A DNA stretch of 64,000 nt, taken from NCBI RefSeq assembly GCF_001678665.1, contig NZ_LZRP01000003.1, forward strand, positions 1 to 64,000. The letters run 5' to 3'. The DNA comes from Erythrobacter sp. QSSC1-22B (GTDB lineage: Bacteria > Pseudomonadota > Alphaproteobacteria > Sphingomonadales > Sphingomonadaceae). How positions within the stretch are numbered: position 1 is the stretch's first letter; every line of letters starts with the position of its first letter. Below the pieces are notes generated by a model. It searched no databases, was not told where the DNA came from, and saw nothing but the letters and a program-made list of their open reading frames with translations. The position numbers were made by a program, and so were the translations under genes. Below, one piece after another: positions 40,474 to 44,426 of this stretch.

Positions 40474-41538
40474 ATGTCGTTGCTCGAAGCCCGCAAGACC
40501 TACAAGCCCTTTGAATACCCGTGGGCCTACGACTTCTGGAAACGCCAGCAACAGATCCACTGGATGCCCGAGGAAGTGCCGCTGGGCGAGGATTGCCGCG
40601 ACTGGGCGCAGAAGCTCTCCGATCACGAGCGCAACCTGCTCACCCAGATTTTCCGCTTCTTCACCCAGGCCGATATCGAGGTGCAGGATTGCTACCACGA
40701 GAAATACGGCCGGGTGTTCAAGCCGACCGAGGTCAAGATGATGCTCGCCGCCTTCTCCAACATGGAGACGGTGCACATCGCCGCCTACAGCCATCTGCTC
40801 GACACCATCGGCATGCCCGAGAGCGAATACGGCATGTTCCTCGAATATGAGGAGATGAAGGCCAAGGTCGATTATCTCGACCAGTTCGGGGTCGATTCCG
40901 ACGAGGATATCGCGCGCACGCTGGCGATGTTCGGCGGCTTCACCGAAGGGCTGCAATTGTTCGCCAGCTTCGCGATGCTGATGAACTTCCCGCGCTTCAA
41001 CAAGATGAAGGGCATGGGCCAGATCGTCAGCTGGTCGGTGCGCGACGAGAGCCTGCATTGCGAAGGCATCATCAAGCTGTTCCACGCGTTCTGCGAGGAG
41101 CGCGGCTGCCTGACCAAGGCGGTCAAGGAAGACATCATCGACATGTGTCAGAAGACGGTGCGGCTCGAGGATGCCTTTATCGATCTGGCGTTCGAGCAGG
41201 GCCCGGTCCACGGCATGACCGCCAAGGAAATCAAGAAATACATCCGCTACATCGCCGACTGGCGGCTGTCGCAGCTCGGCTTCCAGCCGGTCTATATGGT
41301 CGAAGACCACCCGCTCCCCTGGCTCGCCCCGCTGCTCAACGGTGTCGAGCACGCGAACTTCTTCGAAACCCGCGCCACCGAATATTCCAAGGGCGCGACC
41401 ACGGGCAATTGGCAGGACGTCTGGTCGAACTTCGACAAGCGCTCCAGCTCGCGCGCCAAGGCCGCCAACGAGGAAGAGGTCAGCGTGGACGATGGGCCGG
41501 GGCTGTTTGGGGATTCGAGCAGCGTCGCGGCGGAGTGA
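40474..41538 (+). CDS. nrdB: class Ia ribonucleotide reductase, beta subunit
   Basis: NrdB carries the diiron-tyrosyl radical that starts catalysis in NrdA. In the 354-aa protein all metal ligands and the radical residue can be placed: Asp in FFTQADIEVQD, Glu, His and Tyr in NMETVHIAAYSHLLD, Glu in TEGLQLFASFAML, and Glu/His in VRDESLHCEGI. It is therefore the classical tyrosyl-radical type. ATG 40474 has GGAGG at 8 bases. Eight bases after the stop the DUF4160 gene begins on the same strand, so the defence-like module probably shares this transcript. Confidence 0.96.
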   Translation: MSLLEARKTYKPFEYPWAYDFWKRQQQIHWMPEEVPLGEDCRDWAQKLSDHERNLLTQIFRFFTQADIEVQDCYHEKYGRVFKPTEVKMMLAAFSNMETVHIAAYSHLLDTIGMPESEYGMFLEYEEMKAKVDYLDQFGVDSDEDIARTLAMFGGFTEGLQLFASFAMLMNFPRFNKMKGMGQIVSWSVRDESLHCEGIIKLFHAFCEERGCLTKAVKEDIIDMCQKTVRLEDAFIDLAFEQGPVHGMTAKEIKKYIRYIADWRLSQLGFQPVYMVEDHPLPWLAPLLNGVEHANFFETRATEYSKGATTGNWQDVWSNFDKRSSSRAKAANEEEVSVDDGPGLFGDSSSVAAE

Positions 41539-41546
41539 TTTGAGCG

Positions 41547-41771
41547 GTGCCCAAGGTCTTCGACTGGAACGGGTACCGCTTCCACTTTTATTCCAACGAA
41601 GGCGATCCGCGCGAGCCGCCGCACGTTCATGTCCGCAGGGGCATGGCGAACGCGAAGTTCTGGCTGCGGCCCGACGTCGTGCCCGCCTATAGCAAAGGGA
41701 TCACCCCGCAGATGCTTTCGCGGCTGAGCCATGTTATCGAGGACCGTCGCGACGAGATCGAAAGGGCCTAG
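41547..41771 (+). CDS. DUF4160 family protein
   Basis: A 74-aa protein with the DUF4160 pattern: FDWNGYRFHFYSNEGDPREP then PPHVHVRRGMANAKFWL, ending in a helix (LSRLSHVIEDRRDEIERA). The PPHVHV His pair is a family hallmark. DUF4160 genes are often next to DUF2442 genes and the pair has the size and layout of a toxin-antitoxin module, but a toxic activity is not proven to my knowledge. GTG 41547 lies 8 bases after the nrdB stop. Base composition is host-like. Confidence 0.8.
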   Translation: MPKVFDWNGYRFHFYSNEGDPREPPHVHVRRGMANAKFWLRPDVVPAYSKGITPQMLSRLSHVIEDRRDEIERA

Positions 41772-41772
41772 C

Positions 41773-42030
41773 GTGATTTCTTCTCCTGAACCCGTGGCGG
41801 TGCATTTCGACGAACACAGCTTTGTGGTCGAGCTCGCGGATGGCCGCTCGTTGGGCGTGCCGCTGGCGTGGTTCCCGCGCCTGCTGCACGCATCGCCCGA
41901 AGAGCGCGCCAAGGTCGAGCTGAGCAGCGCCGGCCTGCATTGGGAGGCGCTCGACGAGGATATCTCGATTGCCGGGTTGCTGGCGGGGCGGGGCGATGTG
42001 TCGCGGAGCGAGCGCGAGGCGGCGGAGTGA
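41773..42030 (+). CDS. DUF2442 family protein
   Basis: An 85-aa protein matching DUF2442: VHFDEHSFVVELADGRSLGV, the PLAWFPRLLHASPEERAKVE helix and GLHWEALDEDISIAGLLAGR. It starts with GTG one base after the DUF4160 stop, and its own stop overlaps the GTG of the OLD-like gene (GTGA). The order and tight spacing suggest the partner role of an antitoxin or adaptor; this is inference from layout. Confidence 0.8.
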   Translation: MISSPEPVAVHFDEHSFVVELADGRSLGVPLAWFPRLLHASPEERAKVELSSAGLHWEALDEDISIAGLLAGRGDVSRSEREAAE

Positions 42031-43730
42031 AGTGGGCCGAGCTTTTCCCTAGCCGCGAAGATATGCCAAACTCAGCTTCTAGCTTTTACATCGGCGGGGT
42101 GACTTTATCAGAAGGATCAGAGCTTACCTTTACCGAAGGGGACGTTCTGCTCATTGTCGGGCCAAATAATTCGGGAAAGTCAACTTTCCTTCGCAACATT
42201 GCTGACTTTCTTCGGGACTCGCGAATCGCACGAAAGATGCTCGTCAAAGTTGAGCTGAAAACAACGATAGACATCGTAAGGGAGCGTATTAGGGAAGTCT
42301 ACAACGTCCAAGAGAGTGAGCTTCAGCTTTTAATACTTAATGCGGATCAAAACATCGATTTCAGCGTGAGTGTGTACGATTGGAGTGTTGAGAATCCCCA
42401 ATTGGATAAGGCGGTTCGTGCATTTGCCACTACACTGAATGCGGAGACGCGACTTTCGCTCTCAAATCCGACGGACACCTTAGACATTCAGTTCGGAAGA
42501 CCCTCTCATCCTTTCCACAACTTCATGCTCAACAGAGAGGTTCTAAGAAAATTTGCCGGTGTGATTAAAGAGGCCTTCTCGCTGGATTTCACTATAACAA
42601 GGATCGGAAATCCCCTTCGCGGCTACGTGGGCTCTCAGTTCAGGAATTCGGAAGATAACTTGGAGGCAGACAAGGAGATCCCTCAACTCGGAGAGCCGAT
42701 CGACGCCCAAGGTGATGGGATCCGAAGCTACTCAGGTATCGCCGCTGAAATCGTTGGCTCGGATCATCCAATAACACTGCTAGATGAACCTGAAGCTTTC
42801 CTTCATCCTCCTCAAGCTAAGAAGCTGGGGCGCCTTCTGTTGAAGGAGCTATCTCCTAGCCGTCAAGCATTTGTCGCAACTCATAGTAGCGACTTTTTAC
42901 AGGGCGTTCTTTCTTCAAAGTCGCATCGTATAAAGGTTCTGAGACTCGACCGGACCTATGACTCGCTGAGCGCTAACCTGCTTGAGAACGAGCAGTTACT
43001 GTCTGCCCTGATCCACCCTTCAGTTGCCAATAGCAATCTTCTAGACTCACTGTTTTTTTCTCAGACGGTGATTTGTGAAGGAGATGCGGATTGCGGTCTC
43101 TTCGACTGGACAGTTCGAGAGCTAGGCGATGAGAAAATGACCTCCAAAGATCGCTTCTGGTTCGCTAGCGGAGGGAAGCACCAGACGCCTAAGATCGCGA
43201 GATTATTGTCGACGTTCGGCGTGGACTTCCGTGTCATCCTAGACTTGGACGCCATCGCCGACTGGGATCTGCTTAGCCATCTTTCTGAGCTAAAAGGTTT
43301 GGATATAGCTCCCTATAGGGGGAGAATAGCTTCCGCCTTGAGAGTGCTTGCCAGACCAGAAACGGCGGCGGTGATCTCGGAAATTAAGGGTCGTATTGCA
43401 AGCAATAGTGAGTCTCTCGACGAAGGCGAAGCAAGAGTCTTATTAAAAGATATTCAGCGGTCTCTCGAAAAGGTGCGTCGTTCGCAACCCCTAAAGCAAT
43501 ATGGTGTAGCTGCATTCCGGAACGGGCAGGAGCGCAAAGACGTGCAGATATTTCTTCAGCGCCTCACGGATGTCGGTATTATTCTTCTGCCGAAAGGCGA
43601 GCTTGAAAGCTACGTGCCGGAGGTAGGATTGCATGGACCTGGATGGGCTCACGCAGTCTTGGAGGATGACGAGGCTCACAAGGTTGCACTGCGAGAATTG
43701 CTCAGCGACATCTCTCACGGAATCTCATAG
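42027..43730 (+). CDS. OLD-family-like ATPase with TOPRIM nuclease domain
   Basis: A 567-aa protein with an ABC-type ATPase: Walker A GPNNSGKST (residues 45-53), Walker B ITLLDEPEAFLHP (Asp253-Glu254) and H-loop FVATHSSDF. It continues into a TOPRIM-like part with Glu351 in VICEGDAD, a GGKHQTPKIARLL segment and Asp406/Asp408 in VILDLDAIADWD. This is the architecture of OLD nucleases, several of which defend against phages or plasmids. The length fits the stand-alone class, with no UvrD-like helicase next to it. Base composition is far more AT-rich than all neighbours, with non-host codons (TTA, ATA, AGA), a sign of transfer. GTG 42027 overlaps DUF2442; an internal ATG at 42063 is the alternative. 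Confidence 0.8.
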   Translation: MKWAELFPSREDMPNSASSFYIGGVTLSEGSELTFTEGDVLLIVGPNNSGKSTFLRNIADFLRDSRIARKMLVKVELKTTIDIVRERIREVYNVQESELQLLILNADQNIDFSVSVYDWSVENPQLDKAVRAFATTLNAETRLSLSNPTDTLDIQFGRPSHPFHNFMLNREVLRKFAGVIKEAFSLDFTITRIGNPLRGYVGSQFRNSEDNLEADKEIPQLGEPIDAQGDGIRSYSGIAAEIVGSDHPITLLDEPEAFLHPPQAKKLGRLLLKELSPSRQAFVATHSSDFLQGVLSSKSHRIKVLRLDRTYDSLSANLLENEQLLSALIHPSVANSNLLDSLFFSQTVICEGDADCGLFDWTVRELGDEKMTSKDRFWFASGGKHQTPKIARLLSTFGVDFRVILDLDAIADWDLLSHLSELKGLDIAPYRGRIASALRVLARPETAAVISEIKGRIASNSESLDEGEARVLLKDIQRSLEKVRRSQPLKQYGVAAFRNGQERKDVQIFLQRLTDVGIILLPKGELESYVPEVGLHGPGWAHAVLEDDEAHKVALRELLSDISHGIS

Positions 43731-43807
43731 CAGGGTGTTCCCGATTCGGCGCGCTCGGTGTTGCAACGGCCCGTGTCGGCATCGGTCGTAGTCTCGCCCA
43801 CCTCCGG

Positions 43808-43837
43808 CCCCTCCCGCAAGTGGGAGGGGTGTTGTTT
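43808..43837 (+). terminator. rho-independent terminator after the OLD-like gene
   Basis: CCCCTCCC-GCAAGT-GGGAGGGG forms a perfect 8-bp stem followed by TGTTGTTT. It closes the nrdB-DUF4160-DUF2442-ATPase transcript about 80 bases after the last stop. Confidence 0.75.
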
Positions 43838-43889: not shown

Positions 43890-44426
43890 TTAACACCATC
43901 CCCGCCGCACACCCTGCCATTCCTCCGCCAGCCCCTCGTCGACCAGCACCGCGCCAAGGCTCGCGCCGTCGCGGGTGACGGTGCGCAGCAGGCGGCCGTA
44001 GCGGTCGCGGTCGCGGTCCACTGGCTCCAGAGAGAACGCGCCCTCGTTGAGCAGCGCCTGCATCCGCCGGGTCGCGGCTCCGCCCAGTGCGGCCTCGCGC
44101 GCGCAGTCGGGGCTGGTCACTTCGGGGGTGTTGATATCGGCGATGCGGATCTTCTCGCCACGGTACCAGATGGTGTCGCCATCGACCACGCAGGTCACCC
44201 GCGCCCCCCCGCCGCAGATGGCGAAACGCGCTCTCTCGCTGTCTCGCGTTCCAGCAGCCTCGCCGCGCGGCAGCTCGAGCACTGCGGCGAGCCCGGCGGG
44301 CGGGCCGTCCCACATAAACACCAGCGCAAACGCTGCCAGCGGCACCGCCACCAGTAGCGCATTGCCCCAGCGCGGGGTCTTGCGGCGGCGGCGGAAGCGG
44401 GCGGGAGCGGGGGAACGACGCGGCAT
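43890..44426 (-). CDS. membrane-anchored thermonuclease-like (SNase) protein
   Basis: The 178-aa protein has an N-terminal membrane segment (ALLVAVPLAAFALVFMW) after a basic stretch, then an SNase fold: VVDGDTIWYRGEKIRIADIN with the metal-site Asp, TPEVTSPDC, and RDRYGRLLRTVTRDGASLG with the catalytic-type Arg. It probably cuts nucleic acid in the periplasm, or is a structural relative. It stands alone and convergent with the OLD-like gene. Confidence 0.82.
   Translation of the reverse strand: MPRRSPAPARFRRRRKTPRWGNALLVAVPLAAFALVFMWDGPPAGLAAVLELPRGEAAGTRDSERARFAICGGGARVTCVVDGDTIWYRGEKIRIADINTPEVTSPDCAREAALGGAATRRMQALLNEGAFSLEPVDRDRDRYGRLLRTVTRDGASLGAVLVDEGLAEEWQGVRRGWC

Follow-up and report, generated by a model that had tools for sequence, protein, structure and literature searches.

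A probable defence slot behind nrdB in Sphingomonadaceae, occupied in Erythrobacter sp. QSSC1-22B by a DhiTA-type pair and a class 1 OLD-type nuclease gene

Class 1 OLD nucleases are typically encoded in a solitary genomic setting (PMC10568477; PMC13261556), and PMC10568477 describes their genes as not lying near other candidate defence genes. P2 Old, as cited in PMC13261556, responds to a loss of RecBC function and acts on a host tRNA. The dhiTA locus of Dickeya dadantii is a validated type II toxin-antitoxin (TA) system with DUF4160 and DUF2442 domains, in which the toxin gene comes first and the promoter is repressed by the system's own products (PMC8198452). Here we describe a locus where genes of both kinds stand together. 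It lies in a stretch of 64,000 nucleotides of Erythrobacter sp. QSSC1-22B (contig NZ_LZRP01000003.1, positions 1 to 64,000; the whole stretch is called the window below), between nrdB, the gene of the ribonucleotide reductase small subunit (40474..41538, forward strand), and a convergent SNase-domain gene (43890..44426, reverse strand). We consider it quite probable that the space between these two genes is a defence slot of the family, which in this strain holds a DhiTA-type pair and a solitary class 1 OLD gene as two stacked, independent units.

The three genes follow nrdB on the same strand in tight order. Eight bases separate the nrdB stop at 41538 from the start of the DUF4160 gene, which encodes a DhiT-like putative toxin (41547..41771; PF13711, E 3.6e-17). 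After a 1-base gap comes the DUF2442 gene for a DhiA-like putative antitoxin (41773..42030; PF10387, E 6e-22), and this overlaps by GTGA with the gene of the predicted OLD-type ATPase-TOPRIM nuclease (42027..43730, 567 amino acids). Base composition does not follow this compact arrangement. The content of guanine plus cytosine (GC), calculated piecewise, was 0.64-0.67 over both DUF genes, fell sharply around 42040 and reached 0.46 in the piece starting at 42050; by unit, it was 0.499 for the OLD gene, 0.653 for the DUF pair and 0.657 for the entire stretch. From this sharp fall, it can be inferred that the GTGA overlap is a seam, where a native-looking pair was joined to a foreign gene.

In a close relative, another gene follows the pair. 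G038 is the nearest relative in which the slot is readable, and the products of its nrdB, DUF4160 and DUF2442 genes share 96, 97 and 94% of their amino acids with those of the window. DNA homology ends at window position 42023 and restarts at the SNase gene at 43890 (alignment of locus L040). Between the equivalents of these positions, there is another low-GC gene, which encodes 520 amino acids. PADLOC assigns its product to DRT4, an antiviral reverse transcriptase (E 2.7e-142), and among solved structures the product matches chains that bear the name UG15 (E 3.2e-75). The presence of either OLD or DRT4 behind the same pair in two close relatives indicates that pair and nuclease are separable. 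Another genome (G006) is nearer at nrdB, with 100% amino acid identity over the 127 residues present, and its contig ends inside that gene (L041); no OLD match was found in this genome, which is 79% complete. Altogether, the window OLD was present in one of 60 genomes of the genus, while eight others contained weak matches of 4.9e-6 or worse. In four nrdB loci of other genera which contain the DUF pair, it is followed by a high-GC gene (three loci) or by the contig end (one locus).

An earlier note on this DNA, made from the letters and their open reading frames, had proposed that the three genes form one system. If they did act together in defence, the DUF pair would provide the OLD nuclease with a sensor or a brake, as the tight order with its 1-base gap and GTGA overlap might suggest. 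The order itself was confirmed in coordinates and Pfam domains, and so were the TA-like nature of the pair, with the domain pair and gene order of validated dhiTA, and the OLD architecture described below. The joint system was not. Besides the replacement of OLD by DRT4 in G038, the two parts differ in distribution, with DUF2442 present in 81 of 397 genomes of the family and in 7 of 60 of the genus, as opposed to the single genus genome with the window OLD. Furthermore, neither DUF4160 nor DUF2442 was found in the flanks of any of the best 80 of 445 confirmed OLD relatives, where up to 6 kb were taken on each side and at least 700 base pairs (bp) were available on both sides in 70 of the 80, many flanks being shortened by contig ends. 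This search used four-sequence profiles, followed by profiles rebuilt from their hits; the former recovered DUF2442 in 30/30 and DUF4160 in 26/30 family loci. No same-strand neighbour family recurred beside OLD in more than two of the same 80 relatives. Occurrence of the ATPase away from the pair, as seen throughout these 80, had been named in the earlier note as evidence against its proposal. We therefore rejected the three-gene system, which is very unlikely.

We then examined the place behind nrdB in related genomes. Slot DNA was taken from the genus and, within the family, from 80 of 155 nrdB-positive genomes, one per genus. At least 9 kb followed nrdB in 51 genomes of the genus. In these, GC behind the nrdB stop averaged 0.538 in the first 300-bp bin and 0.532 in the second, with 31 and 35 genomes, respectively, below 0.55. 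From 2.1 kb on, mean values returned to 0.636-0.667 and no more than two of the 51 were below 0.55 in any bin. In the family, the first bin lay at least 0.08 below the genome's own base in 41 of 75 cases, compared to at most four for each bin starting at 2.1 kb or beyond; the base was taken at 2.7-5.4 kb, so that closeness to it is built into the bins of that range. A bin within nrdB itself, 900-600 bases before the stop, was also low in 45 of the 75. None of 29 loci was below 0.55 in the first 1.2 kb downstream of one control gene of the window. When GC was scored cumulatively, a low-GC stretch was present in 94 of the 130 slots, with a median of 1408 bp and a 95th percentile of about 2.5 kb. 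Slot genes with GC below 0.58 were mostly on the nrdB strand (65 of 75) and started a median of 55 bases past the nrdB stop. In 20 loci from other families of the class, the dip was weaker and more spread (1-5 loci per bin over 0-2.4 kb, and none beyond 2.4 kb, where the base itself is measured).

The occupants of this slot are varied and rich in defence genes. In the genus, 55 low-GC genes were present in 41 of 55 loci; 30 of them were chosen and scanned singly against Pfam, ten of these also against PADLOC. The slot gene of G038 was scanned against both, and further genus loci were assigned solely via blastp clusters. Restriction-modification was represented by a DNA cytosine methyltransferase with NaeI and NgoMIV endonucleases and by an MT-A70 methyltransferase with BglII. 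Other defence occupants were TIR proteins, Abi_2 (AbiD), SIR2_2, putAbiC, FRG (PDC-S15), DRT4 and OLD. The slot also contained a metallo-beta-lactamase-fold protein (PDC-M48B), DUF5343 (PDC-M34A), an IrrE-type peptidase, DUF4747 and DUF4145. No integrase or transposase family was detected among the slot genes of the window or the 30 singly scanned occupants, 14 of which had no Pfam match at 1e-4. One of these 14 (in L070) matched a TIR effector in PADLOC. Slot genes without a Pfam match at this threshold include L062:1269-2057, L077:1268-2059, L101:1278-2177, L085:8360-9970 and L072:8501-9052; some read as membrane proteins, and all are candidates for putative new defence genes.

For 128 loci (54 of the genus and 74 of the family, the window being omitted), one gene at 0-1500 bp behind nrdB was compared with one at 3500-5000 bp. 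At E 1e-10, the 128 slot genes matched 176 PADLOC models and the 128 control genes matched none; since models instead of genes are counted, the former figure overstates the number of genes, but the contrast with zero holds. Pfam families of the slot set also included non-defence ones (SNase 4, DUF1294 3, sulfotransferase 2, LepA and others, among the 25 of 76 families listed), which probably stem from empty slots, where the next chromosomal gene was sampled. The control set was rich in argB. Across many genomes, the locus thus shows a constant core gene at its border and defence genes that vary, as is the case with core defence hotspots. The earlier note, which had named the module directly behind nrdB a candidate defence system, is supported as to this setting, and the position is meaningful as a site where numerous unrelated defence genes dock. 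In another genus, a second, distant OLD-like ATPase lies directly behind nrdB (L249:4277-5971, reverse strand; E 2e-14 with the profile of a 44-sequence OLD alignment, A1).

As for the OLD-type protein itself, it matched AAA_21 (E 2.9e-18) and OLD-like_TOPRIM (PF20469, E 7.8e-7) in Pfam, and its best PADLOC model was Old (E 1.7e-23). These two Pfam matches and those of both DUF proteins all exceed the curated cut-offs. The protein contains the Walker A motif GPNNSGKST. In the 44-sequence alignment, G45, N47, G50 and K51 of Walker A and D253 and E254 of Walker B are invariant, as are Glu351 and Asp406 of the TOPRIM acids, and Asp408 is conserved in at least 90%. Both an ATPase head and C-terminal TOPRIM acids, as expected of class 1 OLD proteins, are therefore present, and the gene stands alone, with DUF2442 and the convergent SNase gene as neighbours and no UvrD-like or reverse-transcriptase partner. 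The AlphaFold model has a mean predicted local distance difference test (pLDDT) score of 92.1. Its top Foldseek match by E-value was 6p74, the OLD nuclease of Thermus scotoductus (E 5.8e-11 over 625 alignment columns, with a TM-score by query length of only 0.38); chains of retron Eco8 and GajA came next. Sequence similarity to 6p74 is distant (profile E 1.6e-11).

Two partnered systems with OLD-type proteins were considered and rejected. Membership in Gabija was dismissed because no GajB-like UvrD gene is adjacent, the next gene being SNase on the other strand. The same applies to an OLD-effector retron of the Eco8 type, as no reverse transcriptase lies beside the OLD gene, whose neighbours are DUF2442 and SNase; the NCBIfam Eco8 effector score was 32.6 bits, against a cut-off of 250. 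VIA-align matched the protein to SMC, Rad50 and ABC heads, mainly over residues 16-344; no chain titled OLD was among the 50 matches listed, which excludes nothing. This likeness of the ATPase head would suit a housekeeping ATPase of DNA repair or the cell cycle rather than defence, a role of the kind proposed for archaeal Cran1 (PMC12796447). Such a role is highly improbable for a gene with so sporadic an occurrence in the genus, foreign GC and a location in a defence-rich slot.

The start of the OLD gene deserves comment. Residues 1-10 and 12-17 of the model have pLDDT below 50, so that a later start, for example ATG at 42063, is possible. The database protein (P0004) comprises 497 amino acids, 70 fewer than the frame 42027-43730; its start was probably mis-called, since the 497-amino-acid form would cut off Walker A. 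Downstream of the gene, a terminator-like hairpin (43807..43830, forward strand) was picked up by a consensus scan alone, which is at chance level (two sites in the region versus 3.0 expected); a promoter scan of the region returned no site, where 1.0 was expected. The boundary genes were assigned by Pfam, nrdB by Ribonuc_red_sm (E 6.7e-77) and the right one by SNase (E 2.1e-7). Among named organisms, the best match to nrdB was Pseudoblastomonas halimionae with 89%, ahead of Sphingomonas and Erythrobacter names, which points to Sphingomonadales.

The pair resembles DhiTA in that a DUF4160 gene stands directly ahead of a DUF2442 gene. The DUF4160 protein reached 22.3 bits with the NCBIfam DhiT model, far below the cut-off of 100, and we therefore call it DhiT-like by domain and do not name it DhiT; its toxicity is suggested by the domain pair. 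Neither protein had a PADLOC match. Among 30 family loci fetched, 26 had DUF4160 alongside DUF2442. The pair was present in 8 of 141 nrdB loci scanned (three of the 141 end within 2 bp of nrdB), always as the first cargo behind nrdB. At other family loci, the pair was mostly preceded by a long frame on the same strand, at a distance of 0 to about 110 bases. These frames, recognised by reading their C-termini (thiC was checked separately), were thiC-like in nine cases and scpA-like, nrdB-like or bioB-like in others, and some were not recognised.

In 8 of 32 dhiTA loci, a partial second copy of the sequence just upstream of the pair was found beyond it. These comprised two of four genus nrdB loci (L048 and L049) and six of 28 others (L107, L191, L193, L195, L199 and L218); in L191, no upstream frame was recognised. 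The copies of the nrdB 3' end in L048:8923-9066 (reverse strand) and L049:8171-8368 (forward strand) are 85-88% identical in DNA to the intact end. In L107:4750-5420, L193, L195, L199 and L218, the gene immediately before the pair is methylmalonyl-CoA mutase-like or thiC-like, and the copy of its 3' end lies beyond the pair. Pair-less nrdB loci (58 of the genus, and those of the family) contained no 3'-end copy, barring a 25-base match in L045 (E 0.001), which was not counted as one. Behind thiC, 3'-end copies were present in 5 of 30 genus loci (L329, L332, L339, L349 and L353). Two of these insertions resemble, by reading, HigBA-type TA pairs and the others are single small genes; the 3' side of thiC was low in GC in about half of the 30 loci.

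One-sided insertion anchored by homology is known from homology-facilitated illegitimate recombination (PMC3240628), and the copies beyond the cargo form the basis for a docking scheme of this kind. We tentatively suggest, without giving it even chances, that in this family small defence or TA cassettes dock directly behind the stops of a few conserved genes (nrdB, thiC, scpA, bioB and perhaps sdhB and fabI), free of integrases and anchored at the 3' end, leaving a broken 3'-end copy beyond the cargo, with the nrdB tail as the main defence dock. Other routes were also considered. The identical 12-mer GCGGCGGAGTGA ends both nrdB (41527-41538) and DUF2442 (42019-42030), but is probably not an attachment site and was rejected as one, because 108 of 130 pair-less nrdB genes end in a similar GCGGAGT(A/G)(A/G). 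Comparison of the zones flanking the OLD gene revealed no exact direct repeat exceeding 10 bases. Gene transfer agents (GTAs) were rejected as carriers, as GTA_TIM (PF13547) was detected in none of the 60 genus genomes and was positive in the control Caulobacter vibrioides; this result covers that GTA type within the genus.

Two further explanations concern the location of OLD behind nrdB. Its position there, along with the foreign-looking genes found at this place in most relatives, might indicate that OLD depends functionally on nrdB and senses or answers changes in the supply of deoxynucleoside triphosphates. We regard this as extremely improbable, because the occupants (restriction enzymes, TIR, SIR2, reverse transcriptase) share no biochemistry and cargo also appears behind other core genes such as thiC and scpA, which fits docking. 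Alternatively, the genes might merely pile up at a harmless site as transient and mostly idle insertions, of which the nrdB 3'-end copies beyond dhiTA in two genomes would be scars. This is unlikely, given that the OLD frame is intact, its catalytic motifs are kept, and defence models match genes of the slot and none of the nearby control genes.

A defence slot with two independent cargoes thus remains our preferred explanation, and several observations weigh against it. i) A GTGA overlap would equally be shown by a co-evolved operon, and the DUF profiles were derived from the family, so that more divergent DUF pairs next to OLD genes in other phyla might have escaped detection. ii) The slot is uneven: 36 of 130 slots have no low-GC stretch, the GC comparison involves a single control gene, and the 14 Pfam-less genes make up almost half of the singly scanned occupants. 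The PADLOC tally is one of models, and the 25 listed are all methyltransferase models, with six genes each. iii) As for function, the presumed toxicity of the DUF4160 protein depends on the domain pair, given its score below the DhiT cut-off. For the class 1 OLD protein YbjD, a mutant in Walker A is reported to retain activity and the TOPRIM domain to be dispensable (PMC13261556), which calls for caution in assuming that the window OLD cuts through its TOPRIM site.

Our model of the locus is as follows. OLD, occupying the place held by DRT4 in the close relative, would act alone. Its ATPase head would sense a state linked to infection and license the TOPRIM site, which would then cut nucleic acid and halt phage growth, perhaps at the expense of the cell. 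DhiT would be held by DhiA within a self-repressed operon, and DhiTA would exert no regulation on OLD. All three genes are probably expressed at least partly via read-through from nrdB, as suggested by the 8-base distance from its stop.

A compact, fixed slot at a universal marker gene would make defence genes easy to harvest, and the first gene behind nrdB of sphingomonads is a good defence-gene candidate. The 14 Pfam-less occupants are candidates for new systems. The slot also makes it testable how defence genes without mobility genes of their own move. If docking at the nrdB tail takes place as suggested, read-through from an essential gene would provide any incoming defence gene with immediate expression.

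Compared with known systems, the window OLD shares with class 1 OLD proteins (P2 Old, 6p74, E. coli YbjD/OldB) the ABC head, the C-terminal TOPRIM acids and the single gene without helicase or reverse transcriptase. It differs in its surroundings, with a TA-type pair immediately ahead of it and a slot that contains different defence genes in related genomes; this slot may depart from the class 1 setting described in PMC10568477. With Gabija (GajA-GajB), it shares the OLD-type ATPase-TOPRIM protein, but there is no UvrD-like gene beside it. The pair is like DhiTA of D. dadantii in its domains, leading toxin gene and near-zero spacing, and unlike it in its low DhiT score and in the family copies often standing directly behind core genes. 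With regard to the slot, E. coli defence hotspots are likewise fixed chromosomal places with exchangeable defence cargo, but they have prophages, integrative elements and transposons as their usual carriers (PMC10121019). The word nrdB does not occur in the main text of that paper, and no report of an nrdB defence slot was among the matches listed in searches of the literature on nrdB or Erythrobacter with defence hotspots, which covered mostly sources other than subscription journals and preprints. Closest in concept are the core defence hotspots described in Pseudomonas aeruginosa (PMC10250203). Like cDHS1 and cDHS2, the nrdB slot combines a fixed core border gene with variable defence cargo, and it may likewise not be one mobile element. 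The difference is in scale and borders: cDHS1 extends over 1-224 kb with a median of 26 kb between tRNA/tmRNA borders, whereas at nrdB a low-GC stretch with a median of 1.4 kb begins at the stop of a protein gene.

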